64,000 nt of DNA from Rufibacter glacialis. GTDB lineage: Bacteria > Bacteroidota > Bacteroidia > Cytophagales > Hymenobacteraceae. Positions 2,091 to 48,566 of the stretch are shown here, piece by piece. The DNA lies in contig NZ_VKKZ01000021.1 of NCBI RefSeq assembly GCF_008271745.1, positions 310,001-374,000 of the forward strand, in the 5' to 3' direction. A program made the position numbers and the translations under genes. Within the stretch, counting starts at the first letter, position 1. Each line of letters starts with the position of its first letter. The notes below the pieces were generated by a model. That model did no database searches. It was given only the letters and a program-made list of their open reading frames with translations, and was not told where the DNA came from.

Positions 2091-2178
2091 GCGTAAAGCT
2101 GTTTCTACCTTTTTAGGGCTGTTTTCTGGAAATTCCCTTAAAACAGATGCTACAGGAGTTCAATCAAGCGCTATAGCA

Positions 2179-3552
2179 TCAATACTTCTCGTGCACCTCC
2201 GTCATGATCCGGACCATCTCATTGCGGATATCGCCGGAGGAGACTTTGTAGTTGTTGTTCATGAAACTGAACAGCAGCAATTTCCCGCTTTTGGTCTTAA
2301 TGTAGCCACTTTGGTTGTGCACGTGCGCCAAGGTACCGGATTTACCGAAGACGAAGGGAGGTTCGGCTTTGTAGATGCTCCGGAAGGTGCCGGGTCTACC
2401 GCCGGTGGCCATCAAGGGCAGCAACTGCGCCTCGGGGCGCTCCTGCTGTAGTTTTTGGAGCAGCGCGATGATGCTCCGGGGCGTGAACATATTCATGCTG
2501 GAAAGGCCTGAACCGTCTACCCACACCGGGGCATCAGGCAGATCACTCAGGTAATTCTTTACCACATGCTTGATGGCCCGCTCCACCGACAACGTGTCTG
2601 AGAGGGTGCCCGAGCACAAGGCCATGAGTTGTTCGGCAAACAGGTTGTCGCTCACCTGTAGCATGCGCTTATACACCGAGTCTGAAGGCAGGCCATAGAA
2701 AGTCTGGGAACCCTGGGGCAACGCCCGAGGCTTGAGCAAAGTCACTTTTTTCTTGAGGGTATCGGCGAGCAGCCGCACGGTCATCTCAGGGGAAGGAATG
2801 AAGGGTACTTCCACGGAGAAATCAGCGGAGGCGTGTTTGGGGAAATACGTTAGGTCATTGGTGCGCCAGGCCCGCACGAAGGTATCCCGGTGGGGGTAGC
2901 GGGCGGTATCGGTTTTAACGGTAGGCTTGAAGATGGCGGGGGTGGTGGTATACTTTTGGGCAACGCCGCCTTTGCGGGCGAATTTCACCACATTGCCATG
3001 AATGGGGAAAACGTTGCGCTCTGGCTGGTAGTAGTAGTTGTAGTCATCCCAGCCCCAGTTATTGGCGAAGGGTGTGCTGGTGAAAGGGGCCTCCAGGTAA
3101 TACAGCTTCTCTTTGCGGTTTTTGAGGAAGTCGTAGGCCAGGGAGTTCTTCAAGTCCATGTGGGTGAAGGTCGGGTCGCCCGTGCCCCAGAAAATAAGCG
3201 AGTCGCCGCGCACCACGTACTTGAGCGCCGGAATGGAGTCGCCCAGCATTTTAAGGCAAGCGTAGAAGGTGAAGAGCTTGGTGTTGGAGGCAGGCACAAA
3301 GTACTTGTCTACATTGTGTTCCACCACCATTTTGCCCAAGGCCGGGTCATACAGCGCAAAGCCCACAAACCGATTGGTGCTCAACTCTGAAGCCAGCACC
3401 TGCCGTTTTATTTCCTCAGGACCGTAGGGTGGCGGCGCGGGGGCCGGCGTAGAAACTACCGGGGCTGGCTTGGCGGTGCTACACCCTACCAGAAAGAACA
3501 GGAAAAGACAAGGAAGCAAGAGCCAACGGCGGCCCTTCAGTGTGGTTTGCAT
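2179..3552 (-). CDS. dacB: D-Ala-D-Ala carboxypeptidase/endopeptidase, PBP4 (peptidase S13), lipoprotein
   Basis: 457 aa. The N-terminus is a lipoprotein signal with lipobox LVGC (Cys24) followed by a Pro/Ala-rich linker. The penicillin-binding motifs are in order: SNTK (S89, K92), SDN in VSDNLFAEQL near residue 300, and KSG in FGKSGTL near 410. These define a low-molecular-mass class C PBP that trims or cleaves stem peptides of peptidoglycan. Length fits compact Bacteroidota PBP4 proteins. Cys24 lipidation would tether it to the periplasmic face of a membrane. The neighbours on both sides also act on the wall. The dacB symbol follows family, not proven orthology. Confidence 0.85.
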   Translation of the reverse strand: MQTTLKGRRWLLLPCLFLFFLVGCSTAKPAPVVSTPAPAPPPYGPEEIKRQVLASELSTNRFVGFALYDPALGKMVVEHNVDKYFVPASNTKLFTFYACLKMLGDSIPALKYVVRGDSLIFWGTGDPTFTHMDLKNSLAYDFLKNRKEKLYYLEAPFTSTPFANNWGWDDYNYYYQPERNVFPIHGNVVKFARKGGVAQKYTTTPAIFKPTVKTDTARYPHRDTFVRAWRTNDLTYFPKHASADFSVEVPFIPSPEMTVRLLADTLKKKVTLLKPRALPQGSQTFYGLPSDSVYKRMLQVSDNLFAEQLMALCSGTLSDTLSVERAIKHVVKNYLSDLPDAPVWVDGSGLSSMNMFTPRSIIALLQKLQQERPEAQLLPLMATGGRPGTFRSIYKAEPPFVFGKSGTLAHVHNQSGYIKTKSGKLLLFSFMNNNYKVSSGDIRNEMVRIMTEVHEKY

Positions 3553-3764
3553 AGTGTACAGGTTTGGAACCCGTAATTAGTCCAAGAATTTGACACCATC
3601 CAAAATTCCTCCGGAAAATTGCGGCTTCTCAGGCAGGTAGGCTTGTCAGAAGGTAATAATTTTTATTCCGTCTTCTGTTGAAAGACCGTGATGGTGGTGT
3701 GGATTCCAAAAACCGTTTTGCGCCTATTTCCCTTAAAACAGCCTCAAAACGCAACTCTGGAATT

Positions 3765-3942
3765 CCCTCTCCCCTGGGGAGAGGGCTAGGGTGAGGGGCA
3801 GCGGCGTTCCATGGAAACAGCATCAAGGCTGGAACCGCTTTGGACAGGTCGCGACCTGTCCGTACATCTGTTTTATAGGTACTGCTTTTCTAACTGGCGA
3901 CTTCTTCCCCCTCATCCTAGCCTTCTCCCTGGGGGAGAAGGA
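3765..3942. repeat. Compound inverted repeat, CCCTCTCC/GGGAGAGG type, copy 1
   Basis: Arm 1 (3765-3798) begins CCCTCTCCCCTGGGGAGAGG, then CTAGGGTGAGGGG. Arm 2 (3907-3942) is close to its reverse complement (CCCCTCATCCTAGCC, then TTCTCCCTGGGGGAGAAGG). Each arm also contains its own small palindrome. A second copy with the same layout lies at 29907-30019. Confidence 0.75.
3842..3861. repeat. 20-bp perfect palindrome
   Basis: GGACAGGTCGCGACCTGTCC is fully self-complementary with no loop. It lies between the two arms of the compound repeat. Only one copy was noticed in this window. Confidence 0.7.
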
Positions 3943-4208
3943 ACTGCGTTATTGGGTTTTGGACTCGGTTTCTGCAAAACACCCTTAAAACGTACTAGCA
4001 GGTGACTACGCGCAGACATCCGGCTTGGTCATCATCCACCTTCTTCTTCCAAGGGAGACGGACTACGGGCAACAACTACCGGCTGATCAACCGAACACTT
4101 TTCCGTTCTGCACCTGTTTTCAGAAAACGGCAGAAAAACGGGCGAAACTGCTACGATCTGTTTATTTTAACGGACCCAAAGACAGACCACCGTTTAATTT
4201 CCTGCCTT

Positions 4209-5264: not shown

Positions 5265-5358
5265 CACGGAACTTTGCTGCATTTTGGACCTGTTTTTGCT
5301 AAAATTGCAGTAATTTGCATGCTCAACCGCACCCACACCTTATATTTTGCCTGTTGTT

Positions 5359-10375: not shown

Positions 10376-10417
10376 AGGGTTTTGGGGCAGCTTTTGCAAA
10401 AACTGCCCCAAAACCCT
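10376..10417. repeat. Long intergenic hairpin
   Basis: A 15-bp perfect stem (10376-10390 with 10403-10417) built from AGGGTTTTGGGGCAG and its complement, extended inward by TTTT/AAAA. It lies 25 bases before the minus-strand start codon at 10351 and 67 bases past the end of the DUF3616 gene. No T run follows, so a leader structure is as likely as a terminator. Confidence 0.7.
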
Positions 10418-10483: not shown

Positions 10484-11593
10484 TTACTCGTCTTTGATCG
10501 AAAAGACATCGGCGGTAACAATGTTTTCCTCGGCCTTCCGGTCATCTGTGGGGCTGTCAAAGACCACCAGCAGATGCTCATTGTCAAAAATGCCCAAACC
10601 TTCGGCTTTGTCCCTGCCTGAGGTGGGGCCGCTGCCGTGGTGCACGTCAAATAGATGGTCTAGTTCTTTGCGGTGCACCATCTGCTCGCCTTTTCTGGAG
10701 TTAATCATGGCCTTGGGCCACCGGTAGACGGCGATTGTACCGTCCAGGTCCATGGTAGGGCCAGCCAGCACATACAGGTCATCGCCCTTGATGCGCAGTT
10801 CCCGTATGCCTTTGCCCATCAGGTGCAGGAAATGCTTTTTGTAGAGCAGGCCGTCACCGTTGGTCTTGAGTTGCAGGAACCCTTCTTCCTCGGCCTCTTC
10901 CAGCTCCAGTTCCAGCACCATGGCCCAGCCACGCAGCACGGGTCCGCGCAAACCCATAAAAATGCGGCCTTCCTGCATGTCCAATCCTTCAATGTCAAAC
11001 CCGTTGTCTTTGCCCGGAATGGGCAGGAAGTCTTTGAGGTGTGGGTCTTTCTTGATGGCGTGCATGAGCTGGTTGCCTTCGTGCGCCCCTATGAGTTGGG
11101 CGGCTTTCAGCGTTTTAGAGGGATCTTCCTGGCTTTTGCATTCTTTGGAGAGGGTGAATTCACCGGTGGCGATGTCCTGCACCAGCGGAATACGGGCCAG
11201 CAGATACCGGTTGGCCTCTGAAGCCACCTTGGCCAGGCGCTTGATCTGCTTGTCCACCGATTCCTCTTTGCGGGGCTTCTTGCGTTTGAGGCTATGCGAG
11301 CCCACCAGCCACAGATACCCGCCGCTAACGCCCATGCCTTCAATGTCTATCTCAGAATTCTTGCCGTCGGGCAGGTCTAGGTACTCCGTGAGGTCAAAGT
11401 GCACGTGCTCCCCAAAGGTGTGGTCACCGGTTTTCTTCAGGCGCTCCAGGGTGGTCTGTTCGTCGCAGCTGAGCCAGAGGTAGTCGCCGGTGCGCAGAAC
11501 GGTAGACAGGCCGTCGCGCACGTGCTTGCCGGTGGTTGTGATGCTGTGGGTGGGGTCAAAGTGCAGTTCAACCGTGAACGAAGGGCTTTTCAT
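10484..11593 (-). CDS. DUF3616 domain protein
   Basis: 369 aa from the ATG at 11593 (MKSPSFTVELHFDP); the frame opens at 11641 but those residues are not typical. The sequence has the DUF3616 layout: repeated beta strands with DIEGMGV (near 100), FDIEGLDMQEGRIFMGLRGPVLRGWA (middle) and KAEGLGIFDNEHLLVVFDSP (end), which suggests a beta-propeller. There is no signal peptide. The biochemical role of the family is unknown; its members resemble esterase-like phytase or strictosidine-synthase propellers. Monocistronic by spacing. Domain assignment is from memory of family motifs. Confidence 0.75.
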   Translation of the reverse strand: MKSPSFTVELHFDPTHSITTTGKHVRDGLSTVLRTGDYLWLSCDEQTTLERLKKTGDHTFGEHVHFDLTEYLDLPDGKNSEIDIEGMGVSGGYLWLVGSHSLKRKKPRKEESVDKQIKRLAKVASEANRYLLARIPLVQDIATGEFTLSKECKSQEDPSKTLKAAQLIGAHEGNQLMHAIKKDPHLKDFLPIPGKDNGFDIEGLDMQEGRIFMGLRGPVLRGWAMVLELELEEAEEEGFLQLKTNGDGLLYKKHFLHLMGKGIRELRIKGDDLYVLAGPTMDLDGTIAVYRWPKAMINSRKGEQMVHRKELDHLFDVHHGSGPTSGRDKAEGLGIFDNEHLLVVFDSPTDDRKAEENIVTADVFSIKDE

Positions 11594-11822: not shown

Positions 11823-11852
11823 AAAAGCCGCCCCTGTTTAGGAGCGGCTTTT
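11823..11852 (-). terminator. Intrinsic terminator of the lipoprotein gene
   Basis: 12-bp stem with one mismatch (11823-11834 with 11841-11852), AAAAGCCGC type, six-base loop. It lies 21 bases beyond the stop codon of the minus-strand gene. Confidence 0.8.
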
Positions 11853-11873
11853 ATGAAATAAGGCTGAAAACGA

Positions 11874-12758
11874 TTATTTCGCCAGGGTGATCTTGCGTTC
11901 CACCGTATTATACGGACCAGGAATCACTTGGCCGTTGTTGTCAATCAGTTCCAGCTTGAAGGTGTTTTCGCCCATGGGCAATCCTTCTACCAGGTACGGC
12001 AACCACTGGTCTAAGATGAACTCGTTGCCGTTGATGGTGGCGCGCACCTTGTTGCCGTCTTTGGCTAACTTAGTGTTCACCAGGTAGAAGTCCAGCATAA
12101 TTTTGCGGGTGTCAGCGCCTTTGTACTCGCCTTTGGGGCGGCTGTAGAAGAGGTGCTGGCCATTCTCGTCAAACTTCTTGGCGCTGTTGGTGGCGTTGCC
12201 CACGTTGATCACGCGCAGGTCATAGGCATCATCGTGCTTGATGCTTTCATGGTACGAGCGGGAAAGGAACGACAAAACCACGTGCTGGCCCGGCTTGATG
12301 GCTTTCTTGAACGATGGTTTGTAATGCGCGGTGTATGGCTCGTTGTCTACGATGTTGTGGATGTGCTGACCTTCTTTGGAGTTGGCGTGCTCATGGGAAC
12401 CGGCGTCTGAGGTCTGCTGGCTCAGTTGGTAGTTTTTCACCTCATAGGCGAACTGCACAGAGTCGCCGGTGACCTTGGCGTTCTTCTCCGGTTGTTTCAG
12501 GTCCAGGTCGGCATCCGGGAAATCCACGGAGTTGCTGTAGGAGTATATTTTGAGGCCCCCTTTCTCCATAGGCGTACCCATAGAACCCTGGTGCTGTACT
12601 CCGGCGGTATCATTGGCCATGCCAGAGTGATCCGCCATGGCGGTGGTGTCTGCTACCGGTGCATCTCCCTCAGCAGTAGTTTCAGCGCGTTTTCCGTCAC
12701 AGGCAGCGGTCAGAAGCATGGCTGCCACCGCTACAAAAGACAAGTGTTTCTTTTTCAT
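11874..12758 (-). CDS. Putative lipoprotein, His-rich middle, unknown function
   Basis: 294 aa. MKKKHLSFVAVAAMLLTAACDGK is a lipoprotein signal with the lipidated Cys at about residue 20. A low-complexity Asp/Ala/Thr/Met segment (about 25-65) links to a beta-rich domain. The middle has several His residues (SHEHANSKEGQHIHNIV, then HYKPSF and HVVLSFLSRSYHESIKHDD), and the C-terminal third resembles the beta-sandwich of periplasmic copper-handling or FixH-like proteins (inference). It is divergent from the 2OG-Fe(II) oxygenase gene, and a TATCTTTG -7 box lies 35 bases upstream. A metal-related role is possible but not shown. Confidence 0.7.
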   Translation of the reverse strand: MKKKHLSFVAVAAMLLTAACDGKRAETTAEGDAPVADTTAMADHSGMANDTAGVQHQGSMGTPMEKGGLKIYSYSNSVDFPDADLDLKQPEKNAKVTGDSVQFAYEVKNYQLSQQTSDAGSHEHANSKEGQHIHNIVDNEPYTAHYKPSFKKAIKPGQHVVLSFLSRSYHESIKHDDAYDLRVINVGNATNSAKKFDENGQHLFYSRPKGEYKGADTRKIMLDFYLVNTKLAKDGNKVRATINGNEFILDQWLPYLVEGLPMGENTFKLELIDNNGQVIPGPYNTVERKITLAK

Positions 12759-12860: not shown

Positions 12861-13832
12861 ATGAGCGATAAATTATTGGAAGAAATCCCTTCTCTGGACT
12901 TAGCCGATTTCACCTCCGGCGACCCTGCACGCAAAGCCGCCTTTGTGAAGGCGATGGGCGATGCGCACCAGAATATTGGCTTTGTGGCGTTGAAGAACCA
13001 TGGCTTGAGTGATGACTTGACCGAGCGGCTGTACGCGGCCATCAAGAAGTTCTTCGCCCTGCCAGATGACGTAAAGCAGAAATACGAAATACCGGGGCTG
13101 GCGGGCCAACGCGGCTACGTGGGCAAAGGCAAGGAGCACGCCAAAGGCCGCAACACCGGTGACCTGAAAGAGTTCTACCACGTGGGCCAGGAAGTAACCG
13201 ACAACGACCCCATCAAAGAAGAATACCCAGATAACGTATGGCCAACAGAGGTTCCTGAGTTCCAGGAAGTCGCCTTAGAGGCCTACAAGCGCCTGGAAGC
13301 CGCCGGCAAGCAGGTTTTGAAAGCCCTGGCCATTTACCTGAACCTGCCTGAGGATTACTTTGACGCCAAGGTACATAACGGGAACAGCATCCTGCGGCCT
13401 ATCCATTACTTCCCTATTGAGAACCCAGACGCGGTTCCCGCTGATGCCGTACGCGCCGCCGAGCACGGTGACATCAACCTGATCACCTTGCTCATGGGCG
13501 CCTCTGCTGATGGCCTGCAGGTGCTTCGCCGCGATGGCAAGTGGATCCCTATCACGGCCCTGCCCGAGCAGGTGATCGTGAACGTGGGTGATATGTTGTC
13601 GCGCCACACCAACAACAAGCTAAAGTCTACCATCCACCGGGTGGTGAACCCGCCACGGGAGCTGATGAACACGTCCCGTTTCTCCATTCCGTTCTTCATG
13701 CACCCACGTTCTGAGATGGACCTGACCTGTCTGGAAGGCTGTATTGATGCCCAAAACCCGAAACAGTTCCCAGACATCACCGCCGGCGATTTCCTGAACG
13801 AGCGTCTGGTGGAACTGGGATTGAAAAAATAG
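12861..13832 (+). CDS. 2-oxoglutarate/Fe(II)-dependent oxygenase, isopenicillin N synthase family
   Basis: 323 aa. The N-terminal DIOX_N-like region (about 8-120: IPSLDLADF, then GFVALKNHGLS and RGYVGKGKEHAKG) leads to a jelly-roll oxygenase domain. The Fe ligands are visible as HGD in EHGDINLITLL and the distal His in STIHRVV, with the 2-oxoglutarate-binding RFSIPFF. The family couples O2 and usually 2-oxoglutarate to hydroxylation, desaturation or ring closure; the substrate is unknown. No signal peptide, so cytosolic. It stands alone, closed by a strong terminator. A TAACTTGC element at 12810-12817 could be its -7 box. Confidence 0.85.
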   Translation: MSDKLLEEIPSLDLADFTSGDPARKAAFVKAMGDAHQNIGFVALKNHGLSDDLTERLYAAIKKFFALPDDVKQKYEIPGLAGQRGYVGKGKEHAKGRNTGDLKEFYHVGQEVTDNDPIKEEYPDNVWPTEVPEFQEVALEAYKRLEAAGKQVLKALAIYLNLPEDYFDAKVHNGNSILRPIHYFPIENPDAVPADAVRAAEHGDINLITLLMGASADGLQVLRRDGKWIPITALPEQVIVNVGDMLSRHTNNKLKSTIHRVVNPPRELMNTSRFSIPFFMHPRSEMDLTCLEGCIDAQNPKQFPDITAGDFLNERLVELGLKK

Positions 13833-13849: not shown

Positions 13850-13881
13850 GGAAAGGAGCCTTTTGGGCTCCTTTCCTTTTT
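13850..13881 (+). terminator. Intrinsic terminator after oxygenase gene
   Basis: Perfect 11-bp stem (13850-13860 with 13866-13876; GGAAAGGAGCC and complement), a five-base loop and a following T run. Confidence 0.9.
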
Positions 13882-13931
13882 ACTTCCCTTTTAGAAAACA
13901 GGCCTAAAACCACATCCAACCCTCCGTTAAC

Positions 13932-15107
13932 TTGCGCCCTCGTAATTATCTCTTCCTGAAAGATGTAGGCTCCCTCTCGCTCACGGCGTTTGGCGGCCCC
14001 CAGGCGCATATTGCCATGATGCTGCGTCTGCTGGTAGAGAAACGGGGCTATATCAGTGAGAAGGAACTGCTGGAACTGAACGCGCTCTGCCAGATTCTGC
14101 CCGGGCCTTCCTCCACCCAAACCATTACCGCCATCGGGTTCAAGGTGGGCGGCCCCAATCTGGCGTACCTCACGCTCCTGGTCTGGATTGCCCCCGCCGC
14201 CCTGATCATGATTGCGGCGGCTTTGATTATCTCTTTCCTGGAAGGTAGAGGCGCGCCCTTGGGGTTCACGCGTTTCATTCAGCCCATGGCCGTGGGCTTT
14301 GTGGCCTTTGCCGCCTGGCGCATCAGCTCCAAAGTGGTGCACACCAAAGGTGGCATCGTGATCATGGTGATCTCGGCTATTTTGGCTTTCTTTTTCCGGT
14401 CGCCTTGGGTGTTCCCGGTGCTGCTGCTCATTGGCGGAAGCCTGACGGCCCTCCGGTTTCAGCAACAGCCTGTGCTGGAGAAAAAACCCATGAAGGTAGA
14501 ATGGGCTAATTTCCTGCTGTTTCTGGGGGTTCTCATTGCCGCAGCCTTACTAGGGCGGTTTACCCAACTGCGGGCGGTGCTGCTGTTTGAGAACTTCTAC
14601 CGGAACGGCAGCCTCATCTTCGGGGGTGGCCAGGTTTTGATCCCGGTGATGTACACCGAGTTCGTGGTATTCAAAGGCTACCTCAACTCCAAGGAATTCC
14701 TCTCTGGCTTTGCCTTGGTGCAGGCCTTGCCCGGCCCGGTGTTCTCTTTCTGCTCTTACATTGGCACCTTGGCCATGCGACCTTACGGGTGGGGTGGCCA
14801 GCTTCTGGGAGGCGTGGTTTCCACCATTGCCATCTTCCTGCCCGGCACCTTCCTTATCTTCTTCGTGATCCGGTTCTGGGAAGAACTCCGGAAGTACCGG
14901 GTCATCCAGGCCTCTCTGGAAGGAGTCAATGCCGTGGGCAGCGGTATGGTCTGCGCGGCGGCCATCATGCTCTACCACCCCATTGAGAATACGCCCTATA
15001 ACTTCGGGTTGGTGGTGCTCACCTTTGCGCTGCTGCAATGGACCAAGATCCCGGCCCCGGTCCTTATCCTAACCGGTTTGGTGGTAGGGCTGATCTTCCC
15101 TAATTAA
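13932..15107 (+). CDS. chrA: Chromate transporter family (CHR) membrane protein
   Basis: 391 aa, very hydrophobic, about 10-12 membrane spans. It has the two homologous CHR halves: LTAFGGPQAHIAMM with LNALCQILPGPSSTQ in the N-terminal half, and FGGGQVLIPVMYTEFV with GFALVQALPGPVFSF in the C-terminal half. CHR proteins export chromate or related oxyanions; many genomic members are annotated this way without a chromate test. The only start that keeps the first motif is the TTG at 13932, yet TAACTTGC at 13929-13936 looks like a -7 box, so the true start is uncertain. It follows the oxygenase terminator closely. Confidence 0.8.
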   Translation: MRPRNYLFLKDVGSLSLTAFGGPQAHIAMMLRLLVEKRGYISEKELLELNALCQILPGPSSTQTITAIGFKVGGPNLAYLTLLVWIAPAALIMIAAALIISFLEGRGAPLGFTRFIQPMAVGFVAFAAWRISSKVVHTKGGIVIMVISAILAFFFRSPWVFPVLLLIGGSLTALRFQQQPVLEKKPMKVEWANFLLFLGVLIAAALLGRFTQLRAVLLFENFYRNGSLIFGGGQVLIPVMYTEFVVFKGYLNSKEFLSGFALVQALPGPVFSFCSYIGTLAMRPYGWGGQLLGGVVSTIAIFLPGTFLIFFVIRFWEELRKYRVIQASLEGVNAVGSGMVCAAAIMLYHPIENTPYNFGLVVLTFALLQWTKIPAPVLILTGLVVGLIFPN

Positions 15108-15199
15108 GTTTGTTTTCAGCTCCATTTCTGAGAATGAGGGCAAAAACTGGTGTGAATTGAGAGAAAGCGCCCAAGTCCGAAGAGGAGTACCAGCAGAGC

Positions 15200-17423: not shown

Positions 17424-17651
17424 GGGGTGATTAATTACGAATTAGGAATTAAGAATTAGGAAGGGTTTCAAGGCTACTTTGGGCAAAACAGCTCTTAAAC
17501 ACTGGTCTGCCTTTAGTTTCCCGCCCTACCCCCAGCCTGAATAAACCATCTGCGGAAGAGACTATTGGTTTGGCTGCAGGTGGTATAAGCAAGAAGTGCG
17601 TTTAAAAGCCATTTCTCTGGAAACAGCCTTCAAACGCACTTCTGTTTTTGG
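17424..17651. other. Intra-operon spacer with short repeats and a hairpin
   Basis: Contains a short direct repeat of GAATTAGG-type units (about 17436-17461) and, at 17592-17643, a hairpin with a perfect 12-bp outer stem (AGAAGTGCGTTT and complement) just beyond the rfbB stop. The hairpin could cut transcription between rfbB and the two distal genes. Confidence 0.6.
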
Positions 17652-18698
17652 TTAGCGGGTGTACTGCTCGTTATAGTACTCCTGGTAGCTACCGGAAGTC
17701 ACATTCTGCAGCCACTCTTCGTTTTGCAGGTACCACTCCACGGTTTTCTCCAGGCCTTCCTCAAAGGTGACAGACGGTTTCCAGCCCAGCTCATTCATGA
17801 TCTTGGAAGAATCAATGGCGTAACGCAAATCGTGCCCGGCGCGGTCAGTGACAAAAGTGATGAGTTTGCGAGAGGTACCTGGCTCACGGCCTAGTTTCTG
17901 GTCCATGATGTCGCAGAGCAGATGAATGAGGTCAATGTTGCGCCACTCGTTCACGCCCCCAATGTTGTAGGTATCGCCTTCTTTGCCTTTGTGGAACACA
18001 TCATCAATGGCACGGGCGTGGTCTAGCACGTACAGCCAGTCTCTGATGTTCTCTCCCTTGCCGTATACCGGCACCGGCTTGTTGTTCTTGATGTTGTTCA
18101 GCGCCAGCGGGATCAGCTTCTCAGGGAAGTGGTTAGGCCCGTAGTTGTTGGAGCAGTTGGAGATTTTCACCGGTAACCCATAAGTGTGGTAGTAGGCCCG
18201 CACGAAATGGTCTGAACTGGCTTTTGAGGCCGAATACGGAGACCGGGGATCATACTTGGTCTCTTCGGTGAACATGCCTTCCTCGCCCAGGGAACCGTAC
18301 ACCTCATCGGTAGATATGTGGTAGAAGATCTTGCCGGTGAAATCAGCTTTCCAGAGTTCTTTGGCGGCGTGCAGCAAATTGCAGGTACCGTTCACGTTGG
18401 TGCGCACAAAGGCCATGGGGTCTGTGATAGACCGGTCCACGTGTGACTCAGCGGCCAAGTGCATCACGGCATCAAACTGATGCTCCTGGAAAAGACCATT
18501 GATGTACTCCTGGTCGGTGATGTCACCTTTGATGAAGGTGTAGTTAGGCGCCTCTTCAATATCCGTCAGGTTCTGAAGGTTGCCCGCGTACGTGAGTTTA
18601 TCCAGATTGAATATTTGGTAGTTAGGGTACTTGTTGACAAACAACCGTACCACATGGGAACCAATGAAACCGGCTCCTCCGGTGATTAATACTTTCAT
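17652..18698 (-). CDS. rfbB: dTDP-glucose 4,6-dehydratase
   Basis: 348 aa extended SDR. The N-terminus [20 protein letters not shown] binds NAD. MHLAAESHVDRSI, the active-site segment STDEVYGSLG (Thr-Asp-Glu), YSASKASSDHFVRAYYHTYG and NCSNNYGP(N)HFPEKLIP are diagnostic of RfbB/RmlB. It turns dTDP-glucose into dTDP-4-keto-6-deoxyglucose. It lies 12 bases after galE in the same operon and is paired functionally with rfbA at the operon end. Confidence 0.95.
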   Translation of the reverse strand: MKVLITGGAGFIGSHVVRLFVNKYPNYQIFNLDKLTYAGNLQNLTDIEEAPNYTFIKGDITDQEYINGLFQEHQFDAVMHLAAESHVDRSITDPMAFVRTNVNGTCNLLHAAKELWKADFTGKIFYHISTDEVYGSLGEEGMFTEETKYDPRSPYSASKASSDHFVRAYYHTYGLPVKISNCSNNYGPNHFPEKLIPLALNNIKNNKPVPVYGKGENIRDWLYVLDHARAIDDVFHKGKEGDTYNIGGVNEWRNIDLIHLLCDIMDQKLGREPGTSRKLITFVTDRAGHDLRYAIDSSKIMNELGWKPSVTFEEGLEKTVEWYLQNEEWLQNVTSGSYQEYYNEQYTR

Positions 18699-24428: not shown

Positions 24429-24491
24429 GGTAGTATCACGTAGCAAGACTTAAAATTTCTGCTTCGGGGCCTATTTCCGTAAAACAGCTGT

Positions 24492-24536
24492 AAAACGAAG
24501 AAGCCTCATCTTATCCAGATGAGGCTTCTTCGTTTT
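24492..24536. terminator. Bidirectional terminator between msrC and psd
   Basis: A perfect 19-bp stem (24492-24510 with 24518-24536) with a seven-base loop, A-rich on the left and T-rich on the right. Its left CGAAG section can alternatively pair with CTTCG at 24462-24466. Confidence 0.9.
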
Positions 24537-24580
24537 ATAAACAATCTAAAATATCAAAAAGTCGTGCTACCTGATACCAA

Positions 24581-29723: not shown

Positions 29724-29772
29724 CGTTTTCTGCCTGTTTGCTGAACAACAGGTGGAAAACGCGCTTTTTTTT
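29724..29772 (+). terminator. Intrinsic terminator of dusB (hairpin-family member)
   Basis: A 15-bp stem (29724-29738 with 29747-29761) in which all positions pair, two of them only as G-U in RNA, followed by eight T residues. The core CGTTTTC and CCTGTT with complements matches the dispersed hairpin family. Confidence 0.85.
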
Positions 29773-29906
29773 GCGGGTCTATGAAGCCAGCCAGCGGTTT
29801 CCCAATTAACTGCCCAAACTTGAGCGTTTACAGGGCTTTTCCTATTGCTTAGAAAGAGGAGTCCGGGCCAAGATCAGAAGCAGGAAGGGCAAAGGAGGCT
29901 GGCATT

Positions 29907-30019
29907 CCCTCTCCCCCTGGGAGAGGGTTAGGGTTAGGGGCTGCGGGCGTTTAAGGCAAAGGCTTCTCCAGGCAGGAACCTTCCCCCCTCATCCTAGCCT
30001 TCTCCCTGGGGGAGAAGGA
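29907..30019. repeat. Compound inverted repeat, CCCTCTCC/GGGAGAGG type, copy 2
   Basis: Arm 1 (29907-29940) and arm 2 (29985-30019) match the arms at 3765-3798 and 3907-3942, in the same order and orientation, with a shorter, unrelated spacer. A CGTTTTG hairpin follows directly, as in copy 1. Confidence 0.75.
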
Positions 30020-30344
30020 ACCCCGGTATTGCGTTTTGAGCTTGGTTTACAGAAAGCAGCTTCAAAACGAAATACCTTTTGCCATGTGTATTCCCATGGA
30101 GGAGGGCAAAAGGGGGTGTTTATTTCCCACAGATGCACGCGATACGGAAGCCCCTGACCCAGACACTCGCAGGACCTGCGGACGCTGCGAGGTCGTGTGA
30201 GCCCTTAGGGTAGCGGCTCATTGGGTCTATTGCTGCTGCCTTCTTCTCTGTTTGCTTTTGAAGACTTGGGGTAACCTTTTGGGCAGCCCTTTCCGCTTTG
30301 CGGTTGATTTCTCTGAAACAGGCCAGAATCGTGTGGACATCTCT

Positions 30345-35224: not shown

Positions 35225-35295
35225 TGAGCCAAGCCCGGAACCCCTTCCGCTAAACCTGTTTCAAGCCTCTATTCCAGAAAGCACGCCCAAAACCC

Positions 35296-36483
35296 TTACC
35301 GGTTCAACACCACTCTGAACGTAGTGCCCTTGCCTACCTCTGAAGACTTCACATACAGCCGGCCCTGGTGGTAATTCTCAATGATCCGTTTGGCCAGCGC
35401 CAGTCCTAGGCCCCAACCGCGCTTCTTGGTGGTATAACCCGGCACGAACACTTCCTCCTGCTTGGTCTTGGGAATTCCTTTGCCCGTGTCCTGAATGTCC
35501 AGGGCGATGGCGTCTTTGGTGCTTGACTTGACCAGACGCAACGTGATGCTGCCTTTGCCTTCCATGGCGTCTACGGCGTTTTTGCAGATGTTCTCAATCA
35601 CCCACTCAAACAGCGGAATATTGACTTTGGCCGTGGTCTCAGGCGGGAACTCAGATTCTATGGCGAACGCCACCTTGTTAGACACCCGGTTGCGCAGGTA
35701 GCCAATGGCATTCTCCACCACCCGTTGCAAGGGCTCGTCTTTGAGCACGGGCACTGAGCCGATGTTGGAGAACCGCTCCGTGATGATCTCCAGCCGGCGC
35801 ACGTCTTTGCCCAGTTCATCTATGATAGGCTCGTTCTCAAACTTTGGGCTGCCTTTCAGGTACTCGTACCAAGCCATGAGCGAAGAGAGCGGCGTGCCCA
35901 ACTGGTGGGCAGTCTCTTTGGCCAACCCCACCCATACCCGGTTCTGCTCGGCTTTGCGCGAGTAGCTGAAGGCGTAGTAGGCGATAATGGAAAGGCAGGC
36001 AATGACCGTGAGCTGCACGTAGGGGTAGTAGCGCAGCTGGGTGAGCAACTCAGAATCCTTGTAAAAGATGTAGTTTTTGAATTCCTGCTGGTAAGAGACC
36101 ACAATGGGCTTGTGCTGGGCCTTCATCTTCTCAATCTCCCGCTTTAAAAGCCTTTTTTTCCGGCTCTCTGAAATCTTTTCGGGGATATTAAGGTTCTTAT
36201 AAGCGATGACGTTCTCTTTCTCATCGGTCTGGATCACCGGCACGGAGCGGTTGGCGTCAATGATTTCCTCCTGAATAAACACCAGGTTGTCTGAGTCTAT
36301 TTCCGCGTTGATCATGTACTTGAGGCCCTTGGCATACAAGTCAATCAACTGCTGCTCGCGCTCAGAAAGCTTGGCTACCAGCAGGTTGGTGTAGATGACG
36401 GTAGCCGCGCCAATGACCAGGGCAATGGTCATGATGAGCAGCTTCAGCCTAGATTTCTTGGAATAAATGGAGGTTGGAATCAT
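35296..36483 (-). CDS. Membrane sensor histidine kinase
   Basis: 395 aa from the ATG at 36483. Two membrane segments (about 10-33 and 160-180) flank a periplasmic sensor loop without a recognised domain. The kinase core has the H box ETAHQLGTPLSSLMAWYEYL, N box WVIENICKNAVDAM, G1 box DIQDTGKGIP and G2 box KKRGWGLGLALAKRI. No HAMP domain is evident, and no response regulator lies next to it, so it is an orphan kinase in this window. Divergent from hemA. Confidence 0.88.
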   Translation of the reverse strand: MIPTSIYSKKSRLKLLIMTIALVIGAATVIYTNLLVAKLSEREQQLIDLYAKGLKYMINAEIDSDNLVFIQEEIIDANRSVPVIQTDEKENVIAYKNLNIPEKISESRKKRLLKREIEKMKAQHKPIVVSYQQEFKNYIFYKDSELLTQLRYYPYVQLTVIACLSIIAYYAFSYSRKAEQNRVWVGLAKETAHQLGTPLSSLMAWYEYLKGSPKFENEPIIDELGKDVRRLEIITERFSNIGSVPVLKDEPLQRVVENAIGYLRNRVSNKVAFAIESEFPPETTAKVNIPLFEWVIENICKNAVDAMEGKGSITLRLVKSSTKDAIALDIQDTGKGIPKTKQEEVFVPGYTTKKRGWGLGLALAKRIIENYHQGRLYVKSSEVGKGTTFRVVLNR

Positions 36484-38256: not shown

Positions 38257-39210
38257 ATGAAAAGATTGCTCCTCCCCTTTACTGCCCTCCTGGTCTCTTT
38301 TGCCGGTTTTGCTCAGGTGAAATGGACTCCCTCCGCGCAACATCAACAAGGCCTTCCGGCAACGGTGAAGGTATTCACCACGTCAGACTCCCTGGATGGC
38401 AAACCGTTTAAAGCCTATTATCTGGAAGCCGACCTGAAAGACCCTAAACTGGAGGTTCTTACCCAGGTAGGCAACGGCAAGCGGTACACGCCCCGGCAAT
38501 ACTATGAGCAGGAAACCGGCAACGTGCTGGCCACGGTCAACACTACGTTCTTCTCCTTCGCTGATAACCGCAACCTGAACCTGGTCATCAACAACGGCAA
38601 GGTACTGGCCCCGCAGGCATCGGTGCGCCGTAAGAACCCCAAGGGTACAGACACCCTCACCTTCCACCCCACTACCGGCGCCATCGGGTTCTTCCGGAAC
38701 CGCACCGCAGATGTGGCCTGGGCCTATAACGTGGGCAAGAAAAAGAAAACCATGGCCTTGGCTGCGCCCTACAACATCAACGCAGGGGAGCGCCCCGCCC
38801 CAGAGCCGTCTAAACGCACCGTGAAAGGCATGAAACGCTGGAAGCCCCAAGTGGCCGTGGGCGGCGGACCGGTGCTGGTGCAAGACGGCAAACCCCATAT
38901 CACCGCCGAAGAGGAGATGCGCGGCGGCGCTGGCTTTAGGGGGCTTAATCCGCGCACCGTCATGGGCTACACCCCAGATAATAAATTGATCATCCTCATG
39001 GTGGAAGGCCGCCACAAAGGCGTGGCCGAAGGTGCCACCTTGGACCAACTAGCCAAACTGATGGTGGACCTGGGCTGCCAGGAAGCCTTGAACATGGACG
39101 GCGGCGGCTCCAGTGCGCTCTACATCAAAGGCAAAGACACCATCAAACCCTCAGACAAAGAAGGCCAGCGGCCCGTACCGGCCGTGCTGGTATTGAAGTA
39201 TAAAGAGTAA
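38257..39210 (+). CDS. Exported phosphodiester glycosidase (NAGPA domain) protein
   Basis: 317 aa. Signal peptide MKRLLLPFTALLVSFAGFAQ. The rest is a NAGPA/DUF2233 domain: VLATVNTTFFSFADNRNLN (start), PQVAVGGGPVLVQDG (middle), RTVMGYTPDNKLIILMVEGR and the terminal NMDGGGSSALYI. The family was named after the enzyme uncovering mannose-6-phosphate in animals; bacterial members are secreted and may cleave phosphodiester-linked sugars in exopolymers. Substrate unknown. A TATATTGG box sits just upstream. Confidence 0.85.
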   Translation: MKRLLLPFTALLVSFAGFAQVKWTPSAQHQQGLPATVKVFTTSDSLDGKPFKAYYLEADLKDPKLEVLTQVGNGKRYTPRQYYEQETGNVLATVNTTFFSFADNRNLNLVINNGKVLAPQASVRRKNPKGTDTLTFHPTTGAIGFFRNRTADVAWAYNVGKKKKTMALAAPYNINAGERPAPEPSKRTVKGMKRWKPQVAVGGGPVLVQDGKPHITAEEEMRGGAGFRGLNPRTVMGYTPDNKLIILMVEGRHKGVAEGATLDQLAKLMVDLGCQEALNMDGGGSSALYIKGKDTIKPSDKEGQRPVPAVLVLKYKE

Positions 39211-39286
39211 AGAATATCGTTACTTGAAATCCTAAACCCGTTTACTGCATGATTTTCAGAAAACAAGCCAAAATGGGTATTGGCGT

Positions 39287-42716: not shown

Positions 42717-42760
42717 AACCGTTTCTGGCCTACTTTCTAGAAAAAAGGCTGGAAACGGTT
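42717..42760 (-). terminator. Hairpin of the dispersed family, after the arsR-type gene
   Basis: AACCGTTTC (42717-42725) pairs with GAAACGGTT (42752-42760), with further inner pairing through TGGCC/GGCT. It lies 45 bases past the stop of the minus-strand regulator gene and ahead of the kinase operon. T residues follow only sparsely. Confidence 0.6.
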
Positions 42761-42804: not shown

Positions 42805-43113
42805 TTACAGGTCTCCGCAACACTCCTCCAGGCAGTCTATCACATCAATCAGCTTGGGGATAGAAAGGGAATAATAGATTTTGGTGCCTACCTTGAAAGA
42901 CGAGAGAACCCCCTTGTCTTTCAGCGTGATCAGATGCTGAGAGGCAATAGCCTGCGGAAGATCCAGGTAATTATAGATCTCCGTCACAGTCATCTTATCT
43001 TCCTTACCCAGAAGATCCACTATGGCCAACCTTTTTGGGTGCGCCAACACTTTGAGCATAGACGCCGCCTTATCTATCTTCTTAGACTCCACTCTGGATA
43101 ATAAACTTTTCAT
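42805..43113 (-). CDS. ArsR/SmtB-family winged-helix regulator
   Basis: 102 aa. Winged helix with MLKVLAHPKRLAIVDLL (helix 1-2), MTVTEIYNYLDLPQAIASQHLITLKDKGVLSSFKVG (recognition helix and wing) and IYYSLSIPKL. The typical ELCVC metal site in the recognition region is absent, but the extreme C-terminus is CLEECCGDL, three Cys and two acidic residues that could bind metal or sense thiols (inference). No obvious target gene is adjacent; it is followed by the kinase operon. Confidence 0.85.
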   Translation of the reverse strand: MKSLLSRVESKKIDKAASMLKVLAHPKRLAIVDLLGKEDKMTVTEIYNYLDLPQAIASQHLITLKDKGVLSSFKVGTKIYYSLSIPKLIDVIDCLEECCGDL

Positions 43114-43810: not shown

Positions 43811-45037
43811 ATGAAAGACCTACTGACCAAGTTTGAGAACAAACGCCCTGAAATTGTTTTTGAGTGGAAAGATTCTGAAACCGAGGCCGAGGGCTGGGTA
43901 GTGATCAATTCCCTGCGGGGTGGGGCAGCCGGTGGCGGAACCCGCATGCGCAAAGGCCTTGACAAGCGTGAGGTAGAGTCTTTGGCCAAAACCATGGAGG
44001 TGAAATTCACCGTCTCGGGCCCCACCATCGGCGGCGCCAAGTCGGGGATCAACTTTGACCCAGCAGACCCGCGCAAGCAAGGCGTGCTGGAGCGCTGGTA
44101 CCGGGCGGTGTACCCGCTGCTCAAGAACTACTACGGCACCGGCGGCGACCTGAACGTAGACGAGATCCATGAGGTGATTCCCATCACCGAGGAATACGGT
44201 CTGTGGCACCCGCAGGAAGGCATTGTGAACGGACACTTCAAGGCTACGGAGCCGCAGAAGATCAACAAGCTGGGCCAGTTGCGCCAGGGCGTGAGCAAGG
44301 TGCTGGAAGATGTGCATTATTCTCCTTCCCTGGCCCGCAAGTACACCGTGGCCGACATGATCACCGGGTATGGCGTAGCCAAGGCCGTAGCCCATTACTA
44401 TGAACTGTGGGGCGGCGCCCTCCAGGGCAAGCGGGCCATTATCCAGGGCTGGGGCAACGTGGGCGCAGCCGCCGCCTACTACCTCTCTTCTGAAGGCGTG
44501 CAGATTGTGGGCATCATTGACCGCGCCGGCGGAGTGATCAAGGAAGAAGGCTTTTCTTTTGAAGAGATCACCGCCCTTTTCCTGAACCGGGTGGGCAATA
44601 CCTTAACCGCCGATCACCTGCTTTCTTTTGAGCAAGTAAACGCCCGCATCTGGGACCTTCCCTCCGAGATCTTTATTCCGGCGGCGGCCTCGCGGCTGGT
44701 CTCTACTGAACAGGTGGAGCGCATGCAGCAGCACGGTCTGGAGGTGATCTCTTGCGGCGCCAACGTGCCCTTCAAAGACCCGGAGATTTTCTTCGGGGCC
44801 ACCGGCGAGTTCGCCGACCAGCAGGTGTCTGTGGTACCGGACTTTGTGGCCAATTGCGGCATGGCCCGCGTTTTTGCTTACCTCATGGAGCAGGACGTGG
44901 AAATCACTGATGAAGCCATTTTCACAGATATTTCCCGCACCATCCGGCAGGCCCTGGAGAAAGCCCATGAGCGGAACCCCAAGAAAACGGAAATCGCCAA
45001 AACCTGCTTTGAGATTGCATTAAGCCAGCTATTGTAA
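43811..45037 (+). CDS. Glu/Leu/Phe/Val dehydrogenase family protein, divergent paralogue
   Basis: 408 aa. The family's dimerisation domain is recognisable (GGAAGGGTRMRKGLDKREVESLAKTM split across two motifs) with the catalytic strand GPTIGGAKSGINFDP carrying the Lys. The NAD domain has IIQGWGNVGAAAAYYL and IPAAASRLV. A central segment (GTGGDLNVDEIHEVIPITEEYG) differs clearly from the enzyme at 25383, so it is a separate subfamily and its amino-acid substrate may not be glutamate. It ends in a strong terminator. Confidence 0.85.
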   Translation: MKDLLTKFENKRPEIVFEWKDSETEAEGWVVINSLRGGAAGGGTRMRKGLDKREVESLAKTMEVKFTVSGPTIGGAKSGINFDPADPRKQGVLERWYRAVYPLLKNYYGTGGDLNVDEIHEVIPITEEYGLWHPQEGIVNGHFKATEPQKINKLGQLRQGVSKVLEDVHYSPSLARKYTVADMITGYGVAKAVAHYYELWGGALQGKRAIIQGWGNVGAAAAYYLSSEGVQIVGIIDRAGGVIKEEGFSFEEITALFLNRVGNTLTADHLLSFEQVNARIWDLPSEIFIPAAASRLVSTEQVERMQQHGLEVISCGANVPFKDPEIFFGATGEFADQQVSVVPDFVANCGMARVFAYLMEQDVEITDEAIFTDISRTIRQALEKAHERNPKKTEIAKTCFEIALSQLL

Positions 45038-45075: not shown

Positions 45076-45130
45076 CCTGCCGTTTGAGAGGTCTTTTAAG
45101 AAAAAGGCCCCTCAAACGGCAGGCTTTTTT
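45076..45130 (+). terminator. Intrinsic terminator of the second dehydrogenase gene (hairpin-family member)
   Basis: Perfect 13-bp outer stem (45076-45088 with 45111-45123, CCTGCCGTTTGAG and complement) enclosing the inner family core, then seven T residues. Confidence 0.88.
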
Positions 45131-45779
45131 TGTGGCCTCACTTTAGTAGATCAGTGGTAGAGGAGAAGAATCCCTTTGGGAACTGGGTAATCAGGAAAGG
45201 AAAGGAATTACGCGGAAGGACAGAAACAACCATTCCTTGTATTCTTGTCCTTCTAGGTTTCCTTGTCTTCCTGATAGTACCTGGGCAACGAACGGTAATG
45301 GGGGCTTAGAAGAGCTTTTCTAGTTCGCCCACAAGATCCTTCCAGAATGACAGAAAAGGGAAATGGATGTATATAAAGATATAGTGTAACTTGTTTCCCA
45401 ATATACCGCCTTTGTTGGTGTTGTCACCAACAAACCAAAAGGAAGGAACCATTCCGCTTGTTGGTGACAACACCAACAAGGGCAAAAATGCAAAGTGTTA
45501 CCTGGTTGGTATAGTGTAACTGTTTGCCTATATAGTTGTCTTTCTGGTTAGGGCAGTAGCCTTGCGCGATCCTCTTTTTTTAAGGTGGTTTCCCAGAACT
45601 AGCCTGAAAATGTATTGGAGAGATTTCTCACCGCCGCTGGCGCACCAAGATCTTTCAGGCTGCTCTGGCGCTGGGCTTTCTGGATGCAGGAAAGCCTAAC
45701 TCCTTCACTTCTTTTCTAATTTGTCTTTTGTTGGCCTTGGGCTACTCAGGTACTGGACCGCCCATAGCGGCGATGGGCT
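45131..45779. other. Intergenic region with repeat array
   Basis: About 650 bases between convergent genes without a believable ORF. It holds an imperfect long hairpin (about 45187-45292, arms with ATCAGGAA and GAAGGACA) and the palindrome/direct-repeat structure at 45381-45533. Confidence 0.6.
45381..45533. repeat. Two mutually inverted palindromes bracketed by direct repeats
   Basis: Palindrome A (45411-45434) has arms TTTGTTGGTG and CACCAACAAA around TTGT. Palindrome B (45457-45480) has arms CTTGTTGGTG and CACCAACAAG around ACAA, so B is the reverse complement of A. Outside them lie direct repeats starting ATAGTGTAAC (45381 and 45511), alike over about 24 bases through a TGTTT and ATATA section. 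Confidence 0.8.
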
Positions 45780-46142: not shown

Positions 46143-46215
46143 AGATTTGCCCTTTCATTTTAGTGAAAGACCCTTGCCCCGCCTTATTGGTTGCAAAGGG
46201 CATAAAGTTTAACAG

Positions 46216-47328: not shown

Positions 47329-47330
47329 TA

Positions 47331-47402
47331 GATTTGGAGATGTGGGGATGTGGAGATGTGGGGATGTGGAGATTTGGGGATGTGAAGGTTTGGAGATGTG
47401 AG
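47331..47402. repeat. Tandem GGATGTGGAGATGTGG-type minisatellite
   Basis: About four and a half imperfect 16-base units, each made of two 8-base halves (GGATGTGG, GAGATGTGG), directly after the mscS stop. Variants include GATTTGG and GGTTTGG. Confidence 0.8.
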
Positions 47403-47423
47403 GAGGAATAAATCAGAACTCAG

Positions 47424-47457
47424 GATCAGTAGGGACCATCCCTTGTGGTTGCCCTTG
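47424..47457. repeat. Single arm related to the inverted repeat at 38080
   Basis: Aligned with 38075-38107 it is identical at about 28 of 33 positions, beginning GATCAG and ending GTGGTTGCCCTT. The second arm is missing here. Confidence 0.6.
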
Positions 47458-47547
47458 TGCACGCTACCTCTATACAGGTTCGTGAAGAACACTTCAGCTT
47501 AAAGTCTTAAGGAAAGTTATTCCGGGCCTTGCCCGATGTAAAAGCAA

Positions 47548-47604
47548 AATCCCTGTTTGGGGCTTATTTTTGTGAAATAGGCCTCTAAACAGGGATTACT
47601 TTTT
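47548..47604. terminator. Bidirectional hairpin between mscS and the TerB gene
   Basis: 11-bp outer stem (47548-47558 with 47587-47597, AATCCCTGTTT and complement) enclosing GGCTTATTT/AAATAGGCC, then ACTTTTT. A member of the dispersed hairpin family between convergent genes. Confidence 0.8.
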
Positions 47605-47632
47605 AACGCGGATTTTTTACGCGGAGACTGGT

Positions 47633-48469
47633 TTACCAGCCGGAGCCTCTGCGGCCTCCGCCCAGGATACCGCCCAGCAGGCCACCCAGGCCACCGCCGC
47701 CCATTCCAGAACCGTAGCCGCCCCGGCCGCCCAAGCCACCCAGGATAGAAGCCATGGAGCCTAAGCCGCCCATGCGGCCCCCGCCGTACATGCCGCCTCG
47801 GCCGCCCATCATACCGCCGGCCATTCCGCCGCCTAAGAGACCGCCCAGCAATCCGCCTAAGCCTCCGCCCATGCCTCCTCCCATCATTCCGCCTCCGTAT
47901 CCGCCACGGCGGCGGTTCATCATGCCACTGATCACGATAGGGGCCAACACGCCTAGCATACCGGTCACCATGGCTGGCGAGATACCAGATTTCTTGAACA
48001 TATCCCCGAACCCGCTTTTGTTCAGGAACGACTGGGAGGTTGGGTCTTCGCCCTTCTCCTGCGCCTGGTTGGCCTTGTCTACAAACTGGTCCAGGATGCT
48101 GAACTGGTTCTGGTCAATGCCCAGGTAGTTGCTCACCTCGGCAATGCGCTTTTGTTCATCACTGGTATACTGGCCGTCAGATTTGGCGAAACTGATGATA
48201 TCAGTGATAAACGAGAACCGCAGGGGACTGCCTTTGAGAACGTCAAGGCACCGTTGCAGGCTTATCTGCGAGGGGTTCCTGGCAATAGAGATCACTTCCT
48301 GCTGGAGGTTCTCAGGCAGTTCTGCCGCTTCGCTGGTGAGTTGCAGAAACTGTATTTCGTCTTCAGACACATGCCCGTCTGCCGAGGCAATGGTCGCTAA
48401 TGCGCCCAAATAGGCTCCTTTTTCCTGATCAGAGTAATCTTTCAAAAGAGCGGTGGTTTCTTCAGCCAT
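47633..48469 (-). CDS. TerB-like domain protein with Gly/Met-rich tail
   Basis: 278 aa. Residues about 12-130 form a TerB-like helical domain (GAYLGALATIASADGHVSEDEIQFL and SFAKSDGQYTSDEQKRIAEVS, each with the acidic DGxxxxxE signature that binds metal in TerB). A hydrophobic segment (MVTGMLGVLAPIVISGMM, near 170) precedes a tail of roughly 90 residues made of GGGMMGGG, GGLLGG and GRGG repeats. The tail may be a flexible or self-associating region. TerB proteins occur in stress-response modules; no other ter genes are present. Confidence 0.75.
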   Translation of the reverse strand: MAEETTALLKDYSDQEKGAYLGALATIASADGHVSEDEIQFLQLTSEAAELPENLQQEVISIARNPSQISLQRCLDVLKGSPLRFSFITDIISFAKSDGQYTSDEQKRIAEVSNYLGIDQNQFSILDQFVDKANQAQEKGEDPTSQSFLNKSGFGDMFKKSGISPAMVTGMLGVLAPIVISGMMNRRRGGYGGGMMGGGMGGGLGGLLGGLLGGGMAGGMMGGRGGMYGGGRMGGLGSMASILGGLGGRGGYGSGMGGGGLGGLLGGILGGGRRGSGW

Positions 48470-48520
48470 AGTTTCAAGGGGTTGGTGTAGAATAACACAA
48501 ACGACACGGCTTAAAACGAG

Positions 48521-48566
48521 TTGGCGTTTAGGACTGGTTTTTCTGAAAACCGGCCCTAAACGCCAA
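48521..48566 (-). terminator. Hairpin of the dispersed family after the serine hydrolase gene
   Basis: 11-bp outer stem (48521-48531 with 48556-48566, TTGGCGTTTAG and complement) and inner GGTTTT/AAAACC. It lies 20 bases past the stop of the minus-strand serine hydrolase gene. Confidence 0.75.

Follow-up and report, generated by a model that had tools for sequence, protein, structure and literature searches.

Gene ends in a 64,000-nt window of Rufibacter glacialis (NCBI RefSeq assembly GCF_008271745.1, contig NZ_VKKZ01000021.1, positions 310,001 to 374,000) carry a dispersed 38-bp unit, the imperfect dyad CGTTT-N28-AAACG, whose length is fixed. The unit is specific to Rufibacter, is inherited vertically and retained at the same gene ends across species, marks the 3' ends of transcription units, and shifts its spelling in concert genome-wide between species. 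Judging from sequence comparison, we see an even chance that this genus-specific, vertically inherited dyad at transcription-unit 3' ends is recognised as double-stranded DNA by a lineage-specific protein. The descriptive facts on the unit are firm; the binding by a protein and the role at transcription ends are what we infer from them.

Definition and range of the 38-bp unit

In order to define the unit, the window was scanned for CGTTT...AAACG pairs with 18 to 45 bases between them, which gave 8 pairs, seven of them spanning exactly 38 bases and one spanning 31. Where chance would give 0.08 matches to CGTTT-N28-AAACG in the window, 7 are seen, and the 5.32-Mb source genome (G000) holds 146 exact palindromic copies against 8 for the backwards pattern. 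Given that seven of the eight pairs span 38 bases and that the excess is genome-wide, the unit is a fixed-length dyad and no loose hairpin family. The initial annotation had described an imperfect palindrome of about 40-55 bases, of which the palindrome stands and the length does not. Its dispersed family is nevertheless real and larger than stated, since a unit is found in all 12 places that it listed, and the core does not occur at chance level, the outcome it had named as refuting: all 16 Rufibacter genomes counted show an excess.

A pooled weight matrix with a cut-off score of 14, which gave no matches in a reversed copy and three shuffled copies of each of 15 regions, overlaps 10 of the 12 places at a score of at least 14 and adds nine window units, at 3955, 10378, 11835, 15111, 17464, 30294, 35257, 50568 and 51923. 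The places at 2099-2150 and 13891-13912 pass species-adapted matrices only (306 matches against 11 in reversed sequence), and both lie at gene ends whose orthologues carry the unit. The density in the window is 297 units per Mb. In G000 the information per position of the unit is very uneven, from 0.06 to 1.90 bits, unlike the neutral decay of a repeat. Searched at gathering scores, Rfam families in the window comprise tRNA only, with no match to the unit. The main sample consisted of 2.0 Mb from 13 species with 731 units; some G000 stretches were chosen around known exact copies, which biases the unit density there upward, and genes were called with our own hexamer caller, with approximate starts and small genes possibly missed.

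The exact pattern was next counted in 120 genomes of the family. Each of the 16 Rufibacter genomes has 89 to 1214 copies, while 104 genomes of five other genera have 0 to 24 and no real excess, only two of them exceeding their own reversed control (24 versus 21 and 13 versus 5); the lineage specificity suggested earlier is hence borne out. A 14-base skeleton lacking the outer C and G occurs at 186 to 1561 places per Rufibacter genome (16 genomes) against 0 to 2 for the reversed pattern. Similarly, the pooled matrix finds 283 to 550 matches per Mb across the 15 syntenic regions; in a 994-kb sample of other Bacteroidota, drawn entirely from the surroundings of one orthologous locus, it finds none. 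A search for fixed-spacing dyads in samples of Pontibacter, Adhaeribacter, Hymenobacter and Algoriphagus found none comparable, in a coarse test that misses the unit in species G006 too; these samples all came from around one orthologous locus, with A-tracts or shared local sequence as their top pairs. Searches of the open-access literature on Rufibacter, Bacteroidetes repeats, related element classes and concerted evolution turned up no paper listed as describing the 38-bp unit.

Density is low on two smaller contigs. Contig C2 of G051 (whole, taken as a secondary replicon) has 45 units per Mb compared to 465 in chromosomal samples, and contig C2 of G006 (its first 100 kb, likewise taken as a secondary replicon) has 10 compared to 200. 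Spread by phages or plasmids was set aside as a candidate, as the 38-base consensus of species G022 matched nothing in either collection, a weak test for so short a query.

Gene ends and inheritance in place

The 731 units comprise 197 from convergent, 402 from tandem and 78 from divergent gaps, another 33 within called genes and 21 at the ends of stretches. Of the gaps of 20-100 bp in the 13 species, 37 of 65 convergent and 30 of 216 tandem ones contain a unit and none of the 36 divergent ones does, in agreement with the initial annotation, which had placed most copies at gene 3' ends; divergent gaps with a unit are mostly longer than 150 bp. Moreover, units lie most often 0-10 nt from the nearest stop codon. 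From this gap-type bias together with the proximity to stop codons, the unit marks the ends of transcription units. In five species, 30-56% of the gene ends with at least 60 bp of room carry it.

For the window genes, orthologues were located in 14 other Rufibacter species, and a unit within 120 nt was scored at 36 gene ends. Co-presence of the unit at these orthologous ends reaches 1000, whereas shuffles of presence within each species give 702.8 (sd 16.6). In this raw count a unit lying between convergent genes may be scored for both ends; when each unit is taken once and ends need at least 60 bp of room, co-presence is 718 versus 546.4 (sd 19.5), a value reached by none of 1000 shuffles. 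At some ends nearly all species have the unit (13/15, 12/13, 10/10), three ends have room in 15 species and a unit in none, and others, in this comparison at species level, vary in unit presence (7/13, 4/15). The distance to the stop codon can also be kept, at 2-5 nt in nine species for one gene and at 1-4 nt in thirteen for another, while for a third gene the unit lies at -9, with the stop codon within it, in 10 of 11 species; at further ends the distance drifts by tens of bases. Flanks at orthologous unit ends are 40% identical between species, compared to 28% for unrelated ends.

The units of the window are as follows, with the strand where one is assigned and, as fractions, the species with a unit at the orthologous end.

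2109-2146: degraded unit, 3' end of gene 2179-3399 (-); species matrix 27.5, under the pooled cut-off; orthologous units 20-67 nt from the stop in 6/8 species
3714-3751: unit, divergent gap, adjoining CCCTCTCCC palindromes; pooled score 41.6, exact pattern
3955-3992: unit within a 91-nt repeat common to 29984-30074; pooled matrix
10378-10415: unit with GG...CC ends, 68 nt after gene 10484-11593 (-); pooled matrix, 10/13 species
11835-11872: unit 1 nt after the stop of 11874-12758 (-); pooled matrix, 7/13 species
13874-13911: degraded unit about 41 nt after gene 12861-13832 (+); species matrix 23.6, under the pooled cut-off; orthologous units at 40-45 nt in 9/13 species
15111-15148: unit 3 nt after the stop of 13932-15107 (+); pooled matrix, at 2-5 nt in 9/13 species
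17464-17501: weak unit; pooled score 15.9
17592-17643, minus strand: unit 17599-17636 with 7-bp arms (AGAAGTG), putative terminator class, for 17652-18698 (-); 12/13 species
24460-24497: unit beside an ordinary terminator hairpin at 24491-24537, convergent gap; 11/14 species
29724-29761, plus strand: unit followed by a T8 run, after 28701-29699 (+); 13/15 species
30025-30076: unit 30032-30069 with mismatched arms, inside the 91-nt repeat; exact pattern, pooled matrix
30294-30331: weak unit; pooled score 18.6
35257-35294: unit 1 nt after the stop of 35296-36483 (-); pooled matrix, at 1-4 nt in 13/15 species
39239-39276: unit, convergent gap after 38365-39210 (+); pooled matrix
42717-42760, minus strand: unit 42720-42757 with 3-bp arms, 47 nt after 42805-43092 (-); 13/15 species, core and flanks strongly alike across the 8 species compared
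45076-45123, plus strand: unit 45081-45118 with 5-bp arms (CCTGC) and T7, putative terminator class, after 43811-45037 (+); pooled matrix, 10/15 species
47548-47597, minus strand: unit 47554-47591 with 6-bp arms, after 47633-48469 (-); pooled matrix
48521-48566, minus strand: unit 48525-48562 with 4-bp arms (TTGG), after 48587-49726 (-); 11/13 species
50568-50605: unit 13 nt after the stop of 50619-53078 (-); pooled matrix, 10/10 species
51923-51960: 38-bp match within a coding region, possibly by chance; pooled matrix

Other repeats lie near these units. The CCCTCTCCC palindromes are found at 3757-3804, 3907-3997, 29899-29946 and 29984-30074 and are combined with the 38-bp unit in the 91-nt repeat, whose copies are 81% identical; each CCCTCTCCC cluster is bracketed by one pair of units. 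At 45255-45370 there is a repeat of about 90 bp (CAAGATCCTTCCAGAATGACAG...) with dozens of matches listed across the genus, and 45406-45486 holds an inverted repeat of 35 nt (TTGTTGGTG...CACCAACAA) that matches many places genus-wide; species G063 carries a palindrome of this TTGTTGGTG...CACCAACAA type where most other species have the 38-bp unit. At 47330-47404, directly after a gene of MscS type, stands an 8-bp purine-rich tandem repeat (AGATGTGG), which several relatives also have at this position and which recurs at other sites in several Rufibacter genomes.

Dyad sequence, pairing and arms

The initial annotation held that the outer bases pair within each copy. This is so for most of its clear examples but not generally, as uninterrupted arms of at least 4 bp are present in 107 of the 731 sampled copies. 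Pairing was analysed in 12 species, where 105 of 715 copies have arms of at least 4 bp from the unit edge and 610 are armless. In arm-bearing copies the core pairs at 13.5 to 16.1 of 17 positions (species averages), whereas armless cores resemble shuffled halves in 11 of the 12 species (z -2.9 to 2.2), the two halves varying almost independently in most; in G022 and G051 the pairing is even below that of the shuffles (z -2.9 and -2.8). Among mismatches on the sense strand of the gene, G-U (277) and A-C (264) are about equal. TG or CA occupies the central step in 54 of 77 copies in G022, 73 of 95 in G051 and 29 of 52 in species G017, with no clear preference of orientation relative to the gene (17 CA to 12 TG in G022; 22 TG to 17 CA in G051). 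With little selected pairing in armless copies, near-equal G-U and A-C counts and a centre of no clear orientation, the unit therefore looks like a dyad DNA site with two half-sites.

Furthermore, at several conserved ends the unit pairs at just 7-12 of 17 positions in most species and yet stays in place. At 24460-24537 the neighbouring ordinary hairpin is kept in eight species, and in six of them the unit pairs at only 8-10 of 17. Because the armless majority pairs little and poorly pairing units stay in place, what is conserved is the dyad sequence, to which a putative terminator hairpin is added in a minority of copies. The earlier suggestion that the core is conserved beyond the needs of termination is supported.

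For the T-run test, units in tandem gaps and at most 100 nt from the stop were taken, with at least 5 T in the 8 bases after the stem. Arm-bearing copies near a stop show such a run in 30 of 55 cases on the sense strand compared to 7 of 55 on the antisense strand, while for copies more than 100 nt from the stop the counts are 11 and 7 of 119. Arms are also present in 46 of 224 copies near a 3' end versus 11 of 195 elsewhere. In line with the initial annotation, arms at orthologous ends are rewritten with pairing kept, for example AATCCC/GGGATT in G000 (the unit at 47554-47591) and AACCCC/GGGGTT in G006. The excess of arms over shuffled flanks is strong in G000, G022, G017 and G012; in G051, whose flanks are themselves conserved, 11 are seen against 8.4 expected, without clear excess. 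On sequence grounds, about one copy in seven is built into a putative intrinsic terminator with self-complementary arms and a sense T-run. The proposed terminator design hence fits the arm-bearing copies and is not borne out as an overall explanation, given that 610 of 715 copies are armless. These show a core pairing close to shuffled in most species and a weak T-run (36/228 sense versus 14/228 antisense).

Three further possibilities were rejected. If quasipalindrome extension were the sole origin of the arms, they would be expected in all contexts, yet they are found in 3 of 78 divergent compared to 43 of 197 convergent and 59 of 402 tandem gaps. Replacement of ordinary terminators by the unit does not hold either, ordinary hairpin terminators being no rarer than in relatives: with a strict home-made finder they are seen at 15-25% of ends in five Rufibacter species (antisense background 6-13%) and at 7-17% in four groups of relatives (background 3-14%). 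As to the loss of Rho as the reason for a special terminator, Rho is present in 16 of 16 Rufibacter genomes.

Concerted spelling and its explanation

At orthologous ends, with each unit taken once, positions 13-14 of the half-site read CA or CG in 32 of 34 cases in G051, and in 29 of 30 at ends common to at least three other species. In the other 14 species the same positions read CA or CG in 4 of 348 half-sites, GT being commonest in each. Over all sampled units the figures are 207 of 240 half-sites in G051 versus 28 of 1222 in 12 other species. A 31-gene tree places G051 together with G022 and G017; as both keep the common spelling, the new dinucleotide is most simply derived on the G051 branch. 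Other species have marks of their own, such as T at position 7 in G022 (94%) and G017 (92%), and A6, G7 and T18 in G048. The nearest-neighbour identity of copies compared to column shuffles is 28.02 versus 27.83 (sd 0.09) in G000, 34.51 versus 34.07 (sd 0.09) in G022 and 34.38 versus 32.92 (sd 0.11) in G051, so that copies are nearly independent draws, G051 excepted. Single copies with the G051 spelling were observed at G000:C1:455180-455215 (in locus L028) and as a unit in locus L096 of G022, possibly by horizontal transfer.

In the explanation that we prefer, a predicted lineage-specific protein would bind the two 19-bp half-sites of the unit as double-stranded DNA. The spelling would change because the preference of this protein changed, selection or drive bringing the sites along, and the site would insulate or help to end transcription between neighbouring units, about one in seven having been incorporated into what looks like an intrinsic terminator. 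Several observations weigh against such a protein-bound site. Units are also found in 60 of 169 divergent gaps above 150 bp; missed small genes may account for part of these, but not all are explained. Two small contigs (G006 C3 and G042 C6, 7.5 kb each) have two units each, and gene ends that lack room account for part of the raw agreement between species. Pairing in armless copies exceeds that of shuffled halves in G000 (z 4.4) and, to a slight degree, in G012, G037 and G045 (z 2.2, 2.0 and 2.0), and positions covary in G000 (1, 6 and 7), G012 (1 and 7) and G051 (7); hairpin formation is therefore not irrelevant. Armless copies near a stop, as given above, keep a slight sense T-run excess, and the TG or CA centre is no genus rule (50 of 184 copies in G000, 7 of 55 in G012). 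Moreover, the concerted change could have a cause other than a protein, and no binding protein for the unit turned up, no genome-wide search for one having been made.

Two explanations at the RNA level were also considered. A genus-specific intrinsic terminator, in which the whole unit is an RNA hairpin ending transcription and a protein or polymerase preference keeps the core, would account well for the arm-bearing copies, with their sense T-runs (30/55 versus 7/55), cores pairing at 13.5-16.1 of 17, rewritten arms that still pair and concentration near 3' ends (46/224 versus 11/195). We nonetheless consider it unlikely, for only 107 of 731 copies have arms, the armless ones mostly lack a T-run and, in most species, clear selected pairing, ordinary terminators are not depleted, and units that pair poorly are conserved at several ends. 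Alternatively, a stem-loop in the transcript could protect or process the mRNA 3' end, perhaps through an RNA-binding protein; units within 10 nt of stop codons are indeed common, and both the covariation at positions 1, 6 and 7 in some species and the armless pairing above shuffles in G000 point this way. However, G-U is not in excess over A-C on the sense strand, the centre is not clearly oriented with respect to the gene, and armless pairing is near shuffled in most species, which leaves this element quite improbable.

Explanations in which the copies spread, are overwritten or serve DNA uptake were weighed as well. Like repetitive extragenic palindromic (REP) sequences and bacterial interspersed mosaic elements (BIME) with their REP-associated tyrosine transposases (RAYT), the unit is a short intergenic palindrome in hundreds to thousands of copies, biased to 3' ends and convergent gaps. 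Fifteen of 16 Rufibacter genomes have Y1-transposase matches (RAYT type, some IS200 type), a few units sit in larger repeats, and, among nine loci whose flanks were inspected, 38-mers lie within about 50-205 nt of three RAYT genes (L099, L106, L108). A REP-like mobile repeat that decayed later is nonetheless very unlikely. As many as 13 of 15 species have the unit at the same ends, often at a nearly constant distance, and its spelling changes in concert, which is unlike REP and BIME. It does not consistently flank the 30 Y1-transposase loci scanned; 12 of 14 RAYT genes were placed, and the nine inspected flanks mostly show other palindromic repeats. G017 has 851 exact copies and no Y1-transposase match, while 38 of 46 sister-genus genomes have such matches and yet no 38-mer excess. 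The REPs treated in PMC3733652 are mostly sorted by unpaired GTAG or CGTC tags at one end, and PMC6006769 mentions atypical structures beside Bacteroidetes TnpA-REP genes of subclass 2.6. Compared with such REPs, the unit is a fixed 38-bp dyad with neither a GTAG or CGTC tag nor a consistent transposase association: GTAG, GGAG and CGTC lie within 7 nt outside its ends in 13, 17 and 12 of 731 units, with about 22 expected for each. Information at the base adjoining the unit amounts to 0.16-0.73 bits and, in G051, extends to three more bases (0.25-0.68), which reads as an extension of the dyad rather than a REP tag. Beside RAYT-type genes (L087, L091, L095, L096, L099, L101, L106) we observed other palindromic families (GTAAGTTTATAAACTTAC with CCCACAAGTTACGC...; GGGGATTTGCAAATCCCC), perhaps the REPs that truly belong to these RAYTs. 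Homogenisation in place, by gene conversion or repeated overwriting from a mobile source, would give species spellings without a binding protein and agrees with the concerted change at fixed positions and with copies alike beyond column shuffles in G051 (34.38 versus 32.92) and slightly in G022 (34.51 versus 34.07); almost no such excess is seen in G000 (28.02 versus 27.83), 38 bp is short for homologous recombination, and we hold it to be highly improbable. In Neisseria and Haemophilus, DNA uptake sequences (DUS) and uptake signal sequences (USS) form inverted repeats paired in terminators at gene ends, with lineage dialects. The unit resembles them in being an inverted repeat at gene ends with species dialects, but it is restricted to transcription-unit ends and no strong half-site was found outside 38-mers in 200 kb of G022 and 220 kb of G051: at a threshold passed by 60% of true half-sites, 92 of 92 and 115 of 115 lie within units. 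A role in natural transformation is thus extremely unlikely, and both RAYT mobility and DNA uptake fit the unit poorly.

Among known ways of ending transcription, the arm-bearing minority is like an intrinsic terminator, with a hairpin and a sense T-run downstream of genes, but the units differ from it in their shared apical dyad, and most have neither arms nor T-run. TTF-I and Reb1 are eukaryotic terminators that act as DNA-bound roadblocks, and a protein-bound site at unit ends would act in the same way; the analogy is hypothetical, as the protein here is predicted.

The ends of bacterial genes are generally attributed to hairpins or Rho. In Rufibacter, an entire genus has a long sequence-specific dyad at its gene ends, kept between species while its spelling shifts together. 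We tentatively propose, as a possibility short of the likelier outcome, that Rufibacter has its own sequence-specific protein which, on very roughly 1000-3000 sites per genome at transcription-unit ends (extrapolated from 200-550 per Mb in the samples), would insulate or end transcription; protein and sites would have co-evolved dialects, and a change of preference would have rewritten more than 1000 sites in place on the G051 branch. The genus would then let one follow, as a natural experiment, how a factor evolves together with a thousand or more of its sites, and the unit may lead to an as yet undescribed factor for termination or insulation in Bacteroidota.

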